Shown: positions 27,822-37,760 of the stretch, one piece after another
Layout of the letters: each line of letters begins with the position of its first letter
How positions within the stretch are numbered: the stretch's first letter is position 1
Assembly (NCBI GenBank): GCA_036569045.1
Contig: DATCRI010000054.1
Location: forward strand, 1-37,760
Reading direction: 5' to 3'
Length of the DNA: 37,760 bases
Source: Chthoniobacterales bacterium
GTDB taxonomy: Bacteria; Verrucomicrobiota; Verrucomicrobiia; Chthoniobacterales; JAATET01
Position numbers and translations under genes: made by a program
The notes under the pieces: generated by a model
Databases searched by the model: none
Told to the model about the DNA's origin: nothing
The model's input: the letters and a program-made list of their open reading frames with translations, nothing else

Positions 27822-29033
27822 TCAACCACCCGGTTTCAGAAGGGACGCATAGAGATCCACGGTCTTTTTCGCGATTGCGTCCCAGCCGAACATTTCCTCC
27901 GCACGCCGGCGCCCCGCCTTGCCGAAGGCCGCGCATTTTGCCGGATCGGCCATCAGGTCGTTGATCGCCGCCGCGAGATCGCGCGAGAACCTGTCGGGAT
28001 CGACCGGCTCGAACGGGCTCTCGGTCATCTGGTCGATCGGCACGAGCGTTCCGGTCTCGCCCGGCACGACGACCTCCTTGATGCCGCCGACGGCACTGGC
28101 GACCACCGGCGTCTCGCAGGCCATCGCCTCGAGATTGATGATGCCAAAGGGCTCGTAGATCGACGGACAGACGAACACCGCCGCGTGGCTGTAGAGCTCG
28201 ATCTTGGCCCGGGTATCGACCATTTCCTGGATCCACATCACGCCCTCGCGGTGCTCCTGCGCCCCGGCCACGGCGGCCCTCATTTCCTCCGCGATCTCGG
28301 GAGTGTCCGGCGCGCCGGCGCAGAGGACGATCTGGAAGCCGGGATCGAGATACTTGATCGCGTTCACGAGGTGGACGATGCCCTTCTGCCGCGCGATGCG
28401 GCCGACGAAGAGAATGTAGGGCCGGGCGGGATCGATGCCGAAGTGCTCGAGCGAGGCCCGGGAATCCGTCGCCTGGTATTCCTCGAGATCGATGCCGTTG
28501 TAGATGATCGGCACCCGCTCCTCGGGAATGTCGAACAGCCGAAGGATGTCCGCCTTCGTTCCCGCGGACACGGCGATCACCGCGTCGGCCATTTCCATCG
28601 CGGTCTTCTCGAGCCAGCAGCTGAAATCGTAGCCGCCGCCGAGCTGCTCGCGCTTCCACGGCCGCAGCGGCTCGAGCGAATGCACCGTGATCACAAGCGG
28701 GATGCCGTAGTTGAGCTTCGCGAGAATGCCGCCGAAATGGGCATACCACGTGTGGCAATGCACGACATCGGCATCGATGTTCGTCGTATTGAAATCCGTG
28801 CAACGGCGCACCGCGCCGAACACGGATTGCAGCGGCTTCGGGCACGTGAATCCGCTGGCATCGAGGCCGAAGCCTTTCACGACGGGGTTTCCGGTCGGCA
28901 CGTCCTGATCGCCGAACGCCCTCACCTCCACATCGATATGCCGCGCGAGGCCGCGGCTGAGATAATCGACGTGCACGCCCGCGCCTCCATAAATCGTGGG
29001 CGGATATTCGTTCGTGAGGAGAAGTGTTTTCAC
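27822..29033 (-). CDS. glgA: GT4-type glycogen synthase / ADP-glucose glycosyltransferase
   Basis: The 403-residue protein begins with a GTG codon (29033-29031). It is a GT-B fold enzyme: MKTLLLTNEYPPTIYGGAGVHV at the N-terminus, HCHTWYAHFGG, VSAGTKADI, YNGIDLEEY, FVGRIARQKGI and the nucleotide-sugar motif EPFGIINLEAMACETPVVAS. This combination and length match the actinobacterial-type glycogen synthase of family GT4, not the longer GT5 enzyme of enterobacteria. It would transfer glucose from ADP-glucose to a glucan. In actinobacteria the related GlgM makes maltose-1-phosphate, so that acceptor is an alternative. It lies in a - strand run with pgl and obgE, 189 bases downstream of pgl. The symbol reflects family naming and is less certain than the function. 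Confidence 0.85.
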   Translation of the reverse strand: MKTLLLTNEYPPTIYGGAGVHVDYLSRGLARHIDVEVRAFGDQDVPTGNPVVKGFGLDASGFTCPKPLQSVFGAVRRCTDFNTTNIDADVVHCHTWYAHFGGILAKLNYGIPLVITVHSLEPLRPWKREQLGGGYDFSCWLEKTAMEMADAVIAVSAGTKADILRLFDIPEERVPIIYNGIDLEEYQATDSRASLEHFGIDPARPYILFVGRIARQKGIVHLVNAIKYLDPGFQIVLCAGAPDTPEIAEEMRAAVAGAQEHREGVMWIQEMVDTRAKIELYSHAAVFVCPSIYEPFGIINLEAMACETPVVASAVGGIKEVVVPGETGTLVPIDQMTESPFEPVDPDRFSRDLAAAINDLMADPAKCAAFGKAGRRRAEEMFGWDAIAKKTVDLYASLLKPGG

Positions 29034-29222: not shown

Positions 29223-29900
29223 CTACGCGCCGAGCAACCAGGTGAGCTGGCCGTCGAGCGGCGCCACCTTCGCGCAGGGATAATCCGACGTGCCGCTGAA
29301 GACTTCGTTCAGCACGTCGTCCTTGCCGGCGCTGTTCACGAGGAAACACACGTGGCGGGCGGCATCGATGAGCGGATACGTGAACGTGATGCGCCACATG
29401 TCCATCTGCGGCACGAAGTTTTCGACGACGAGCTTCTCCCGCTCGACGAGCGCGGGAGTGCCGGGAAAGAGCGAGGCCGTGTGACCGTCGGGCCCCATTC
29501 CGAGGAGAACAAGATCATGGCGAAACACGCCGCCGCCGGCACGGGCGCGCAGGGCGACTTCGTATTCGTGGGCCGCCGTCGCAGGATCGATCTCCCCCTT
29601 CATGCGCAGGATGTTTTCCGTTGGAATCGGCACCAGATCGAGCAGGGTGCGGCGTGCCATCAAATAGTTGCTCCTCTCGTCATCCGGCGGCACACAACGC
29701 TCGTCGCCGAACGTGATGACGACCTTGCGCCAGTCGATGGCGCGTTTTGCGAACGCCTGAAAAACCGGCTTCGGGGTATTGCCGCCGCTCAGCGCGAGGG
29801 TGAAGACGCCGCGCTCGCGGATCGCCTCGTTGGCGCTGGTCTCGAGCAACTGCACCGCGTCGTTCACGAAGTCGTTGGAATGAATGATGTCGGGTTTCAT
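29223..29900 (-). CDS. pgl: 6-phosphogluconolactonase
   Basis: The 225-residue protein is of the DevB/SOL type. It shows the sugar-phosphate isomerase-like motifs LALSGGNTPKPVFQAFA, ITFGDERCVPPDDERSNY and LLGMGPDGHTASLFPGTPAL. It hydrolyses 6-phosphogluconolactone to 6-phosphogluconate, the second step of the oxidative pentose phosphate pathway, in the cytoplasm. It follows sixA after only 7 bases (AAAATTT) on the same strand, so the two are almost surely cotranscribed. Glucose-6-phosphate and 6-phosphogluconate dehydrogenases are not in the window. Confidence 0.95.
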   Translation of the reverse strand: MKPDIIHSNDFVNDAVQLLETSANEAIRERGVFTLALSGGNTPKPVFQAFAKRAIDWRKVVITFGDERCVPPDDERSNYLMARRTLLDLVPIPTENILRMKGEIDPATAAHEYEVALRARAGGGVFRHDLVLLGMGPDGHTASLFPGTPALVEREKLVVENFVPQMDMWRITFTYPLIDAARHVCFLVNSAGKDDVLNEVFSGTSDYPCAKVAPLDGQLTWLLGA

Positions 29901-33614: not shown

Positions 33615-34884
<1,270 letters not shown>

Positions 34885-34895
<11 letters not shown>

Positions 34896-35505
34896 GCTCC
34901 CGACGTTCATCCTGAATTACCCCAGTCACTCCTTGGACTCGAGCAACGACAGCGCATCGGAGATCGAGCTGATTCGACGGATCGGCGACGGCGATCGCGC
35001 GAGTTTCGAGGAATTCTACGACCGCTACTCCGGCCTGATTTACTCGACCGCCCTGCGCGTCCTCAACGACGTGGCCGATGCCGAGGAGGTCACCCAGGAA
35101 GTCCTGTTCATGATCTGGGAAAAAGCGCCGATGTATGACGCCTCCCGCGGGAAGCCCCTCACCTGGGCCGTAACGATGACGCGGAACAAAGCCATCGACC
35201 GCATTCGCTCCGTGCAACGCCGCATCCGCCTGCGCGACGGGGCTGGCGCCGAGATGGCGGCGGATACCTTCGTCCACGAACGCCGCCCCTTCGACGAGGT
35301 GGATTCCCACGAGCAGAGCGACCGCGTTCGCTCCGCCGTGCTCCAGCTGAAGGCCGGTCAGCGCGAGGTCATCGAGCTGGCCTATTTCGGCGGCCTCACC
35401 CAGCAGGAGATTGCCGATCGACTCCATGAGCCACTCGGCACCGTCAAGGCCCGCATCCGCCGCGGCATGATGCGCCTGCGAAAGTTGATCGCTCCCGGGG
35501 AGTGA
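34885..35505 (+). CDS. ECF-like sigma-70 family RNA polymerase sigma factor
   Basis: The frame gives up to 206 residues from a TTG at 34885, overlapping hemL by 11 bases. A second TTG at 34933 would give about 190 residues, and no in-frame ATG lies before the conserved region, so the start is unsettled. Region 2 is seen in ASFEEFYDRYSGLIYSTALRVL, DAEEVTQEVLFMIW and LTWAVTMTRNKAIDRIRSVQRR. Region 4 is LKAGQREVIELAYFGGLTQQEIADRLHEPLGTVKARIRRGMMRLRK. The layout is that of the SigK/SigL-like ECF group, which usually has a neighbouring anti-sigma factor; here the next gene is unrelated. It directs RNA polymerase to a set of promoters that cannot be named from the window. Confidence 0.88.
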
Positions 35506-35571
35506 CGCCCGCCCGGCCTCGCCCACGGTTTGACATTGAATCCTGCCCGGAACGCGTTAGCCGTTAACGCC

Positions 35572-37760
35572 GTGCAACCTCTGCCAAGGGTCCGCGTAAG
35601 GGCCAAGTTTTTCTTCGAAGGCGACCGGAAGTTTTTCATCAAAGGCGCCACCTATGGCCCCTTCGCGCCCGACGCCGACGGCGAGCATTTCGGCAACCCG
35701 CAAAAGCTGGCCGGCGACCTCGCCATCATGCGCGACACCGGCATCAATCTGCTGCGCGTCTACTACGTGCCGCCGCGCTGGTTCCTCGACACATGTCTGG
35801 AATCCGGCATTCGCGTGCTCGTCACGATCCCCTGGGCCGAGCACATCGAGTTTCTCAACGACCGCAAGATCCGCCGCGAGGTCGTCCGCGCCGTGCGTGA
35901 CGGCGTGAAAAAGAACGCCGGCCACTCCGCCATCTTCGGATACCTCGTCGGCAACGAGATCCCCACCAGCATGGTGCGCTGGCTCGGCGCCCGCGCCGTC
36001 ACGGAATTCGTCGAGGAGCTCATCAACATCGCCCGTCAGGCCGATCCCGACGCGTTGTATTCCTACGCAAGCTTCCCACCCACGGAATACCTCCTCCCGC
36101 AGAACGTCGATTTTCTCACCTTCAACGTCTACCTTCACTATCAGGAGGACTTCGACCGCTACCTCGCCCGCCTCCAGAATCTCGCCGACGATCGTCCTCT
36201 CGTGATGGGCGAGTTCGGCATGGACACCATCCGCCATCCCGAAGAGGAGCAGGCGGAGATGCTCACCTGGCACATCGAGAGCGTCGTGCGCGGCGGGCTC
36301 GCCGGCACCGTGCTCTACGCATGGACCGATGAATGGTTCCGCGGCGGCAACGAGATCATGGACTGGAACTTCGGCCTCGTGCGGCGCGACCGCACGCCGA
36401 AGAAAGCCCTTGCCGCCGTGAAGGCGCTCTTCGCCGGCGACGAACCGATGACCCGCAAGATCGGTCTCGCCAGCTACCCGAAGGTCAGCGTGATCGTCTG
36501 CTCCTACAACGGCGCAAAGACGCTCGAGCGCTGCCTCGAGTCGCTCAAGGAAGTCGATTATCCGAACTACGAGGTCATCCTCGTGGACGACGGCTCCAAG
36601 GACAACACGCAGGAAATCGCCGCGCGCCATCCCTGGATCGTCAACATCAAGCAGGTCAACAAGGGCCTCTCCGTCGCCCGGAACGTCGGCGGCTACGCGG
36701 CCACCGGCGAGATTCTTGCCTACACGGACTCGGACTGCATGGCCGATCCCGACTGGCTCTACTACCTCGTTCACACGCTCACCAGCGGCGACTACTGCGG
36801 CGTCGGCGGCCCGAACATTTCCCCCCCCGCCGAGGACTGGATCCAGGCCTGCGTGAGCGCGGCGCCCGGCGGCCCCAGCCACGTGCTCCTCACCGATGTC
36901 GTCGCCGAGCACATCCCCGGCTGCAACATGGCCTTCCACAAATGGGCCTTCGAAAAGGTCGGCGGCTTCGACTCGGAATACCGCAAAGCCGGCGACGACG
37001 TCGATTTCTGCTGGCGTCTTCAGCAGGAGGGCCAGGTCATCGCCTTCAGCCCTGCGGCCATCGTCTGGCACTACCGCCGGTTCACGCTGCAGGCTTTCCG
37101 CAAGCAGCAGGAAGGCTACGGCGAGGCCGAGTCGCTCCTGCGTTTCAAGCACCTCGTCTTCTTCGGCCCCACCGGCACCGCGAAATGGCGCGGACAGATC
37201 TACGGCGCCCCGCGGTTCACGTGGCTCATCAACAAGCCCGTCATCTACCACGGCGTCTTTGGCGAGGGCCTGTTCCAGTGCATCTACCCGACGCCGCAGA
37301 GCGAAATCGCTGCCTACGTCAGCAGCATCGAATGGGTCGTCCTTACCGCCGCGATCTTCGTCACGTCCATTCCGCTGCCGTGGCTGCGCATCGTGCCCTA
37401 CCTCATGTTCGGCGCCACGCTGCTCGTCGCGCTCAGCTACATGATCCACGCGAAGCTCGAGCCGCGCTTCGACACGATCCGCGCTCGACTGCTCGTCATT
37501 TTCCTCGCCCTCGCTCAGCCGCTCGTTCGCGGATGGACCCGCTACTACGTCTGGCTGAAATTCAAGCGCACCCCGCCGTCGGTCATCGCGACCCACGAGG
37601 AGGATTTCCGCCCCGTCCGCGGCAGCAGCATCACGAATCTCGAGTTCTGGGACGAAACGACCGGCAAGGGCCGCGAAGCCCTGCTCCCGGCCGCCATCGA
37701 CGCCCTCGAGAAGGAAAACTGGAGCTACTCGATCGATACCGGCTGGAAGGACTGGGACGT
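35572..37760 (+). CDS. Glycosidase-like barrel fused to a family 2 glycosyltransferase, partial (open at the right edge)
   Basis: A frame is open from a GTG at 35572 (MQPLPRVRVRAKFFFEGD) to the window end, 729 codons. An in-frame TTG at 35530 is an alternative start. Residues about 8-290 form a clan-A (GH2/GH5-like) barrel: KFFIKGATYGPFAPD, GINLLRVYYVPPRWFLD, Glu129 in YLVGNEIPTSM (acid/base position) and Glu214 in VMGEFGMDT (nucleophile position), then AWTDEWF. From about 302 a GT-A domain follows: VSVIVCSYNGAKTLERCLESL, LVDDGSKDNT, NKGLSVARNVGG, the DxD motif in YTDSDCMAD (386-388) and GCNMAFHKWAFEKVGGFD. Two hydrophobic stretches (about 587-627 and 640-665) suggest membrane attachment. There is no signal peptide at the N-terminus. 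It probably takes part in making or trimming an exported polysaccharide; both functions in one chain are inferred from retained catalytic residues. Confidence 0.85.
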   Translation, partial: MQPLPRVRVRAKFFFEGDRKFFIKGATYGPFAPDADGEHFGNPQKLAGDLAIMRDTGINLLRVYYVPPRWFLDTCLESGIRVLVTIPWAEHIEFLNDRKIRREVVRAVRDGVKKNAGHSAIFGYLVGNEIPTSMVRWLGARAVTEFVEELINIARQADPDALYSYASFPPTEYLLPQNVDFLTFNVYLHYQEDFDRYLARLQNLADDRPLVMGEFGMDTIRHPEEEQAEMLTWHIESVVRGGLAGTVLYAWTDEWFRGGNEIMDWNFGLVRRDRTPKKALAAVKALFAGDEPMTRKIGLASYPKVSVIVCSYNGAKTLERCLESLKEVDYPNYEVILVDDGSKDNTQEIAARHPWIVNIKQVNKGLSVARNVGGYAATGEILAYTDSDCMADPDWLYYLVHTLTSGDYCGVGGPNISPPAEDWIQACVSAAPGGPSHVLLTDVVAEHIPGCNMAFHKWAFEKVGGFDSEYRKAGDDVDFCWRLQQEGQVIAFSPAAIVWHYRRFTLQAFRKQQEGYGEAESLLRFKHLVFFGPTGTAKWRGQIYGAPRFTWLINKPVIYHGVFGEGLFQCIYPTPQSEIAAYVSSIEWVVLTAAIFVTSIPLPWLRIVPYLMFGATLLVALSYMIHAKLEPRFDTIRARLLVIFLALAQPLVRGWTRYYVWLKFKRTPPSVIATHEEDFRPVRGSSITNLEFWDETTGKGREALLPAAIDALEKENWSYSIDTGWKDWD

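Follow-up and report, generated by a model that had tools for sequence, protein, structure and literature searches.

A glycosidase barrel and a glycosyltransferase in one reading frame

The window, by which we mean the whole stretch of 37,760 nucleotides that was analysed, is a complete contig (C54) from an assembly of 3.4 Mb, and its forward strand ends in one uninterrupted reading frame (35572–37760, the contig end) that encodes, in order, a clan-A glycosidase barrel, a family 2 glycosyltransferase (GT2) domain and membrane helices. No in-frame stop occurs up to the contig end, which gives 743 codons from a TTG at 35530 or 729 from a GTG at 35572; the GTG is the preferred start because several relatives carry a start codon at the equivalent place, and residues are numbered here with it as residue 1. 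Because the window is an entire contig, the gene is truncated. Full-length orthologues have ~830–880 aa and the stop is expected ~110 residues past the contig end; the window lacks these C-terminal residues, and they are taken from relatives, where they complete a small alpha/beta domain and add a second membrane hairpin. Pfam matches above curated cut-offs were to GT2 (PF00535, E = 1.2e-29) and, within the N-terminal 300 residues, to the clan-A barrel families GH72 (8.7e-8) and GH2_C (5.6e-6), i.e. to a GT2 domain and a TIM barrel only, and the structural model likewise shows one barrel and one GT2 domain. The earlier note had read a barrel, a GT2 domain, Glu129, Glu214 and a DxD motif from a single chain, and a check of the codons found both glutamates and the DxD exactly in their places.

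In the model of the barrel (35581–36447, forward strand; mean pLDDT 95.5), strand positions match the clan-A pattern, and the predicted structure has the features of a retaining clan-A glycosidase: a (beta/alpha)8 fold, an Asn-Glu pair after beta-4 and a Glu after beta-7. Both Foldseek (E 7.4e-18) and VIA-align (Z 32.3, rmsd 2.5 over 286 residues) ranked first the GH157 endo-beta-1,3-glucanase of Labilibaculum antarcticum (LaGH157; PDB 9fz9, 9g4n, 9g5g), the nearest solved fold. The predicted acid/base, Glu129 (GNE, end of beta-4; 35956–35958), aligns with LaGH157 Glu132, and the predicted nucleophile, Glu214 (GEFG, end of beta-7; 36211–36213), with LaGH157 Glu224, which is Ala in the substrate complex 9g4n. 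GH2 glucuronidases trail GH157 by 1–1.5 Z units (Z about 31, VIA), so that the fold alone does not settle the family of the barrel. It is the sequence profile that separates the families (GH157 E 3.6e-36, runner-up GH2 1.4e-17), with weaker profile matches including GH72 glucanosyltransferases and GH158. Thus LaGH157 has the barrel fold, the profile and both catalytic Glu positions in common with the fusion, though identity is about 20%. A GH157 enzyme of Bacteroides cellulosilyticus (BcellWH2_01931) acts on linear beta-1,3-glucan (PMC10229575); a different beta-glycoside could be the specific substrate of the modelled barrel, given that the GH2 glucuronidases score nearly as high structurally. 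No paper citing the three LaGH157 entries was found in the literature searched. Distant matches in the same phylum include three lipoprotein-like proteins of GH157 type that lack a GT2 domain (L078, L079, L080); L080, the only one of these secreted barrels tested, matches LaGH157 at 4.7e-53 and forms a bridge to GH157.

The GT2 domain (36478–37155, forward strand) has, by Pfam match and conserved motifs, the predicted features of a GT-A fold enzyme: the Asp339-Asp340 pair (VDDGS; 36586–36591; Asp340 invariant, Asp339 in 65 of 68 aligned sequences), the DxD motif of Asp386 and Asp388 (36727–36735; invariant in the 68) and a candidate catalytic-base region at Asp475-Asp476 (GDDVD; 36994–36999; 67 of 68, with one gap). 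Its nearest NCBIfam model is the mycofactocin glycosyltransferase MftF, which covers the GT2 half only and is matched below cut-off (E 8.8e-44; 150 bits vs 280). Processive synthases carry a Q(Q/R)xRW motif (PMC10237404), which is absent here: the alignment places QQEGYG at this position (37105–37122), and QQxGYG is near-invariant in the 68 sequences. Since QQxGYG replaces the processive motif, a long polymer is not the default expectation, and the sequences suggest that the product is no less likely to be a short or lipid-linked glycan than an exopolysaccharide. The proposal that the two domains edit an exopolysaccharide or control its length is weakened to that extent, while its premise of two domains with conserved active residues is upheld.

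The first membrane hairpin (37306–37446) consists of hydrophobic segments at 37306–37362 and 37390–37446 that are helices in the model, and is followed by the start of the small alpha/beta domain (37636–37760), which was placed from the full-length model of the same-genus orthologue L039 (barrel, GT2, hairpin, small alpha/beta domain, second hairpin; pLDDT 87.8). No signal peptide or membrane segment was found ahead of the barrel, so that hydropathy and model agree with the earlier note on both ends of the chain. In the barrel and linker of 102 members there was no convincing hydrophobic span (median peak 1.07, with one member at 1.63, against a threshold of 1.6 that we chose), and all eight members from family f15 (L070–L077; 688–734 aa) lack a hydrophobic span anywhere. 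GT2 enzymes require a cytosolic nucleotide-sugar donor. Taken together, the uninterrupted connection of the two halves, the span-free f15 proteins and this donor requirement make a cytosolic barrel most likely, a placement that the earlier note had considered possible. This would set the fusion apart from the characterised Bacteroides GH157 enzyme, which is degradative and predicted to be at the cell surface, whereas the barrel here is probably cytosolic and is joined to a GT2 domain.

Conservation and partner genes

Full-length versions of the fusion occur in 30 of 38 genomes of the same genus and order, at 64–92% identity, and hence the frame is not a chance one. Class-wide, it was found in 119 of 188 sampled genomes (E<=1e-100), and in the phylum to which a Phycisphaerae member belongs in three of 246 (E<=1e-70); judged by these matches, the fusion is spread widely through Verrucomicrobiota and occurs sporadically in Planctomycetota. 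Among the best 80 of 510 matches in a named collection, the closest relatives were Terrimicrobiaceae/Chthoniobacterales metagenome-assembled genomes (MAGs) of Verrucomicrobiota, and the proteobacterial names among those 80 may be mis-binned MAGs. The named strain Chthoniobacter flavus Ellin428 has both the fusion and the exporter described below, while a search of plasmids and phages found no copy of the fusion. Across 68 aligned sequences (35–93% identity), Asn128-Glu129, Glu214, Asn185, Asp253, Trp255, Asp340, Asp386 and Asp388 are invariant, and the active-site Asn, Tyr and Trp beside both glutamates of the barrel are invariant or nearly so. The claim that both active sites are intact thus extends, at the level of sequence, down to 35% identity. 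The earlier note would have abandoned its reading had most orthologues lost the glutamates, but all 68 sequences retain them. Pairwise identities of barrel and GT2 correlate at 0.92 in this alignment, a value consistent with descent of the two halves as one unit but one that shared ancestry alone also raises.

Neighbours of the fusion in the window's order are mostly housekeeping genes (hemL, queA, miaB, carB, rluD). A hemL-like class-III aminotransferase gene, probably for glutamate-1-semialdehyde aminotransferase (33615–34895, forward strand), is a conserved upstream neighbour in this order; in 29 loci a member of its family lies <=600 bases ahead of the fusion, probably as a housekeeping linkage. 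Directly upstream in the window is an ECF sigma factor gene (34885–35505, forward strand), which we ruled out as a linked partner because it is near the fusion in only 10 loci and adjacent in five. A GT87-like gene is found downstream of the fusion in 14 loci of the order. Elsewhere in the window, translations judged by eye resemble a glycogen synthase-like glycosyltransferase (27822–29033) and a 6-phosphogluconolactonase (29223–29900). By itself this neighbourhood pointed to no partner, and one emerged only outside the order.

There, the first gene after the fusion, in the same orientation and sometimes overlapping the fusion gene, encodes a ~600-aa ABC exporter of the MsbA/NdvA type. It lies directly downstream of the fusion in 32 genomes from 12 families, with adjacency limited to 900 bases (our choice); this count and the presence tables that follow were computed from hand-transcribed coordinates and genome lists. 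A genome-wide search within the order found the exporter in 29/30 fusion-bearing and 0/8 fusion-lacking genomes (Fisher p 1.8e-7, for genomes that are related and not independent), and the single fusion-bearing genome without it is 86% complete. For the class the numbers were 88/119 and 0/69, with a cut-off of about 1e-118 that we set once the distribution of scores had been viewed; one partial match (G644) was counted in, and a p-value for these class counts is therefore to be read with caution. Exporter and fusion are jointly absent in separate places, namely genus g8 (two genomes with, two without) and families f2, f7 (G656), f5 and f11. As a control, lpxB was found in 28/30 fusion-bearing and 8/8 fusion-lacking genomes of the order; the co-absence of fusion and exporter is therefore due neither to poor assembly nor to loss of lipid A. 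General lipid A export was ruled out as the role of the ABC partner, every fusion-lacking relative having kept lpxB. The exporter is not obligatory, since 31 of the 119 fusion-bearing genomes in the class, those of families f15 and f18 among them, lack an ABC match at the orthologue level. In the window's own genome it sits on another contig (C55).

The ABC partner passes no NCBIfam cut-off. It scores higher with the MsbA-type model (TIGR02203, 448 bits, cut-off 602) than with models of the ChvA/NdvA glucan exporters (NF010178, 380 of 733 bits; TIGR01192, 311 of 585), and also scores well against MsbA chains.

A second partner, which we call GTx, is a family of ~390 aa (e.g. L205:10000-11172; one member begins MKRKKIIVLGFMGGMPIAGVIWQ). 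At E<=1e-20, a cut-off that mixes close and distant homologues, GTx occurs in 29/30 fusion-bearing and 0/8 fusion-lacking genomes of the order. Its gene follows that of the exporter in several genomes, in locus L151 and in the Phycisphaerae operon, and a hexapeptide acyltransferase gene often lies between the two. The order's version of GTx had no Pfam or NCBIfam match, and a Planctomycetota copy has a weak match to Glyco_trans_1_2 below cut-off. GTx-like genes are close to lpxB in the window's own genome. Fusion, exporter and GTx thus occur together at one Phycisphaerae locus; the exporter gene of this operon is apparently split into two frames (L178:10546-12389, the same place as L157). No exosortase or polysaccharide-export gene, of the kind that the earlier note had named as partners to look for, was a recurrent neighbour in the examined loci, and it is the ABC exporter and GTx that recur instead. 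That the fusion has partner genes is new here.

A candidate route for making, trimming and exporting a glycan

We propose that the fusion is a bifunctional glycan synthase which works at the cytoplasmic face of the inner membrane and whose product leaves the cell through a dedicated ABC protein, and we put the probability of this reading at roughly one half. The invariant catalytic residues, the GH157-like barrel, the lack of a span between the halves and the linkage to the exporter all argue for it. The GT2 half would take sugars from a nucleotide donor and with them extend a beta-linked glycan that is probably short and probably a beta-glucan. The barrel, facing the same side, would cut, transfer or cyclise this glycan and thereby set its length or release it; the reaction would pass through a covalent Glu214-sugar intermediate, Glu129 serving as acid/base. 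The MsbA/NdvA-type exporter, whose gene adjoins that of the fusion in many relatives, would then carry the product out. We infer from the features above that both halves are active, that the substrate is a beta-glucan, that the steps follow this order, and that it is this product which the ABC protein carries.

Two known systems bear on this proposal. In Cgs, synthesis, length adjustment and cyclisation are combined in one protein (PMC10834661) and the product is exported by an ABC transporter (PMC10514313). The fusion resembles Cgs in having an ABC exporter as its partner, which would presumably carry its product, but the Cgs domains are GT84, a cyclisation domain (GH189) and GH94, the folds of which differ from those seen here, and the ABC partner, unlike a ChvA/NdvA glucan exporter, falls below the cut-offs of the glucan-exporter models. 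The NdvB cyclic beta-glucan synthase of Pseudomonas and Bradyrhizobium, like the fusion, joins a GT2 domain and a barrel of beta-1,3-glucan type in one polypeptide. Its barrel, however, is GH17 rather than GH157-like, and NdvB has a hydrolase predicted to be periplasmic, a BcsA-like GT2 and transmembrane (TM) helices that separate the two (PMC10237404), whereas GH17 is absent from the Pfam matches of the fusion and no hydrophobic span separates its halves. The fusion is thus Cgs-like in logic and NdvB-like in parts, and a member of neither; as it lacks defining features of both, it would be a variant of GT-GH glycan synthase outside the two. More tentatively, it might represent a third architecture for exported beta-glucans, in which a cytosol-facing GT2-GH157 protein polymerises and cleaves or cyclises, a dedicated ABC protein exports, and GTx serves as an undescribed helper family.

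The earlier note named no established function for such fusions. Nor did we find a description of this one in the literature searched, outside which most subscription papers lay, but for GT-GH fusions such as NdvB a role has been proposed. Fusion and exporter together suggest an undescribed route for making, trimming and exporting a glycan. In NdvB-type fusions the cutting half is on the opposite side of the membrane, and a coupling on the cytosolic side that is tied to an exporter would differ from this; if true, it would account for how some bacteria fix the length of a glycan before export, and 119 of the 188 sampled genomes of the class would gain a glycan pathway, the product of which is not described in the literature searched.

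The chief alternative is a pathway that makes a glycolipid or a lipid-linked oligosaccharide. In it, the membrane-anchored GT2 domain would add one or a few sugars to a lipid carrier, the barrel would trim or transfer sugars on this lipid, and the MsbA-like ABC protein would act as a flippase for the finished lipid. The MsbA-leaning scores of the ABC partner, a GT2 domain without the processive motif, the membrane hairpins at the C-terminus and the GTx-like genes close to lpxB in the window's genome would all fit. The fusion-lacking genomes, which have neither the ABC protein nor GTx, all retain lpxB, and general lipid A assembly is therefore not what the three genes serve; moreover, f15 keeps the fusion without membrane segments, and glucan polymers are the substrate of the nearest barrel family. 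We consider such a pathway possible but somewhat doubtful.

It is improbable that the barrel instead serves in salvage or proofreading, hydrolysing stray or imported oligosaccharides in the cytosol, with the GT2 domain attached for co-localisation only. For one GH17 protein that lacks a signal peptide, a cytoplasmic role on beta-1,3-glucan made by a GT2 enzyme has been proposed (PMC13188888), but the fusion stays one chain across the class, its barrel and GT2 domain diverge in step, and the linkage to an exporter points to export. Very unlikely, too, is a topology like that of NdvB, with a periplasmic barrel cyclising beta-glucan that is extruded through the membrane region of the GT2 half: the combination of GT2 and a beta-1,3-glucan-type glycosidase in one chain recalls the Pseudomonas protein, but the latter has eight predicted TM helices (PMC10237404) against few hydrophobic segments here, all of them C-terminal, and the fusion has neither a signal peptide nor a span between barrel and GT2, its exporter being a separate ABC protein. 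Equally hard to credit is a catalytically inactive barrel that acts as a sugar-binding scaffold for the GT2 domain, since, although the activity of the barrel is here a prediction from sequence and fold, both glutamates and the adjacent Asn, Tyr and Trp have been kept in all or nearly all sequences.
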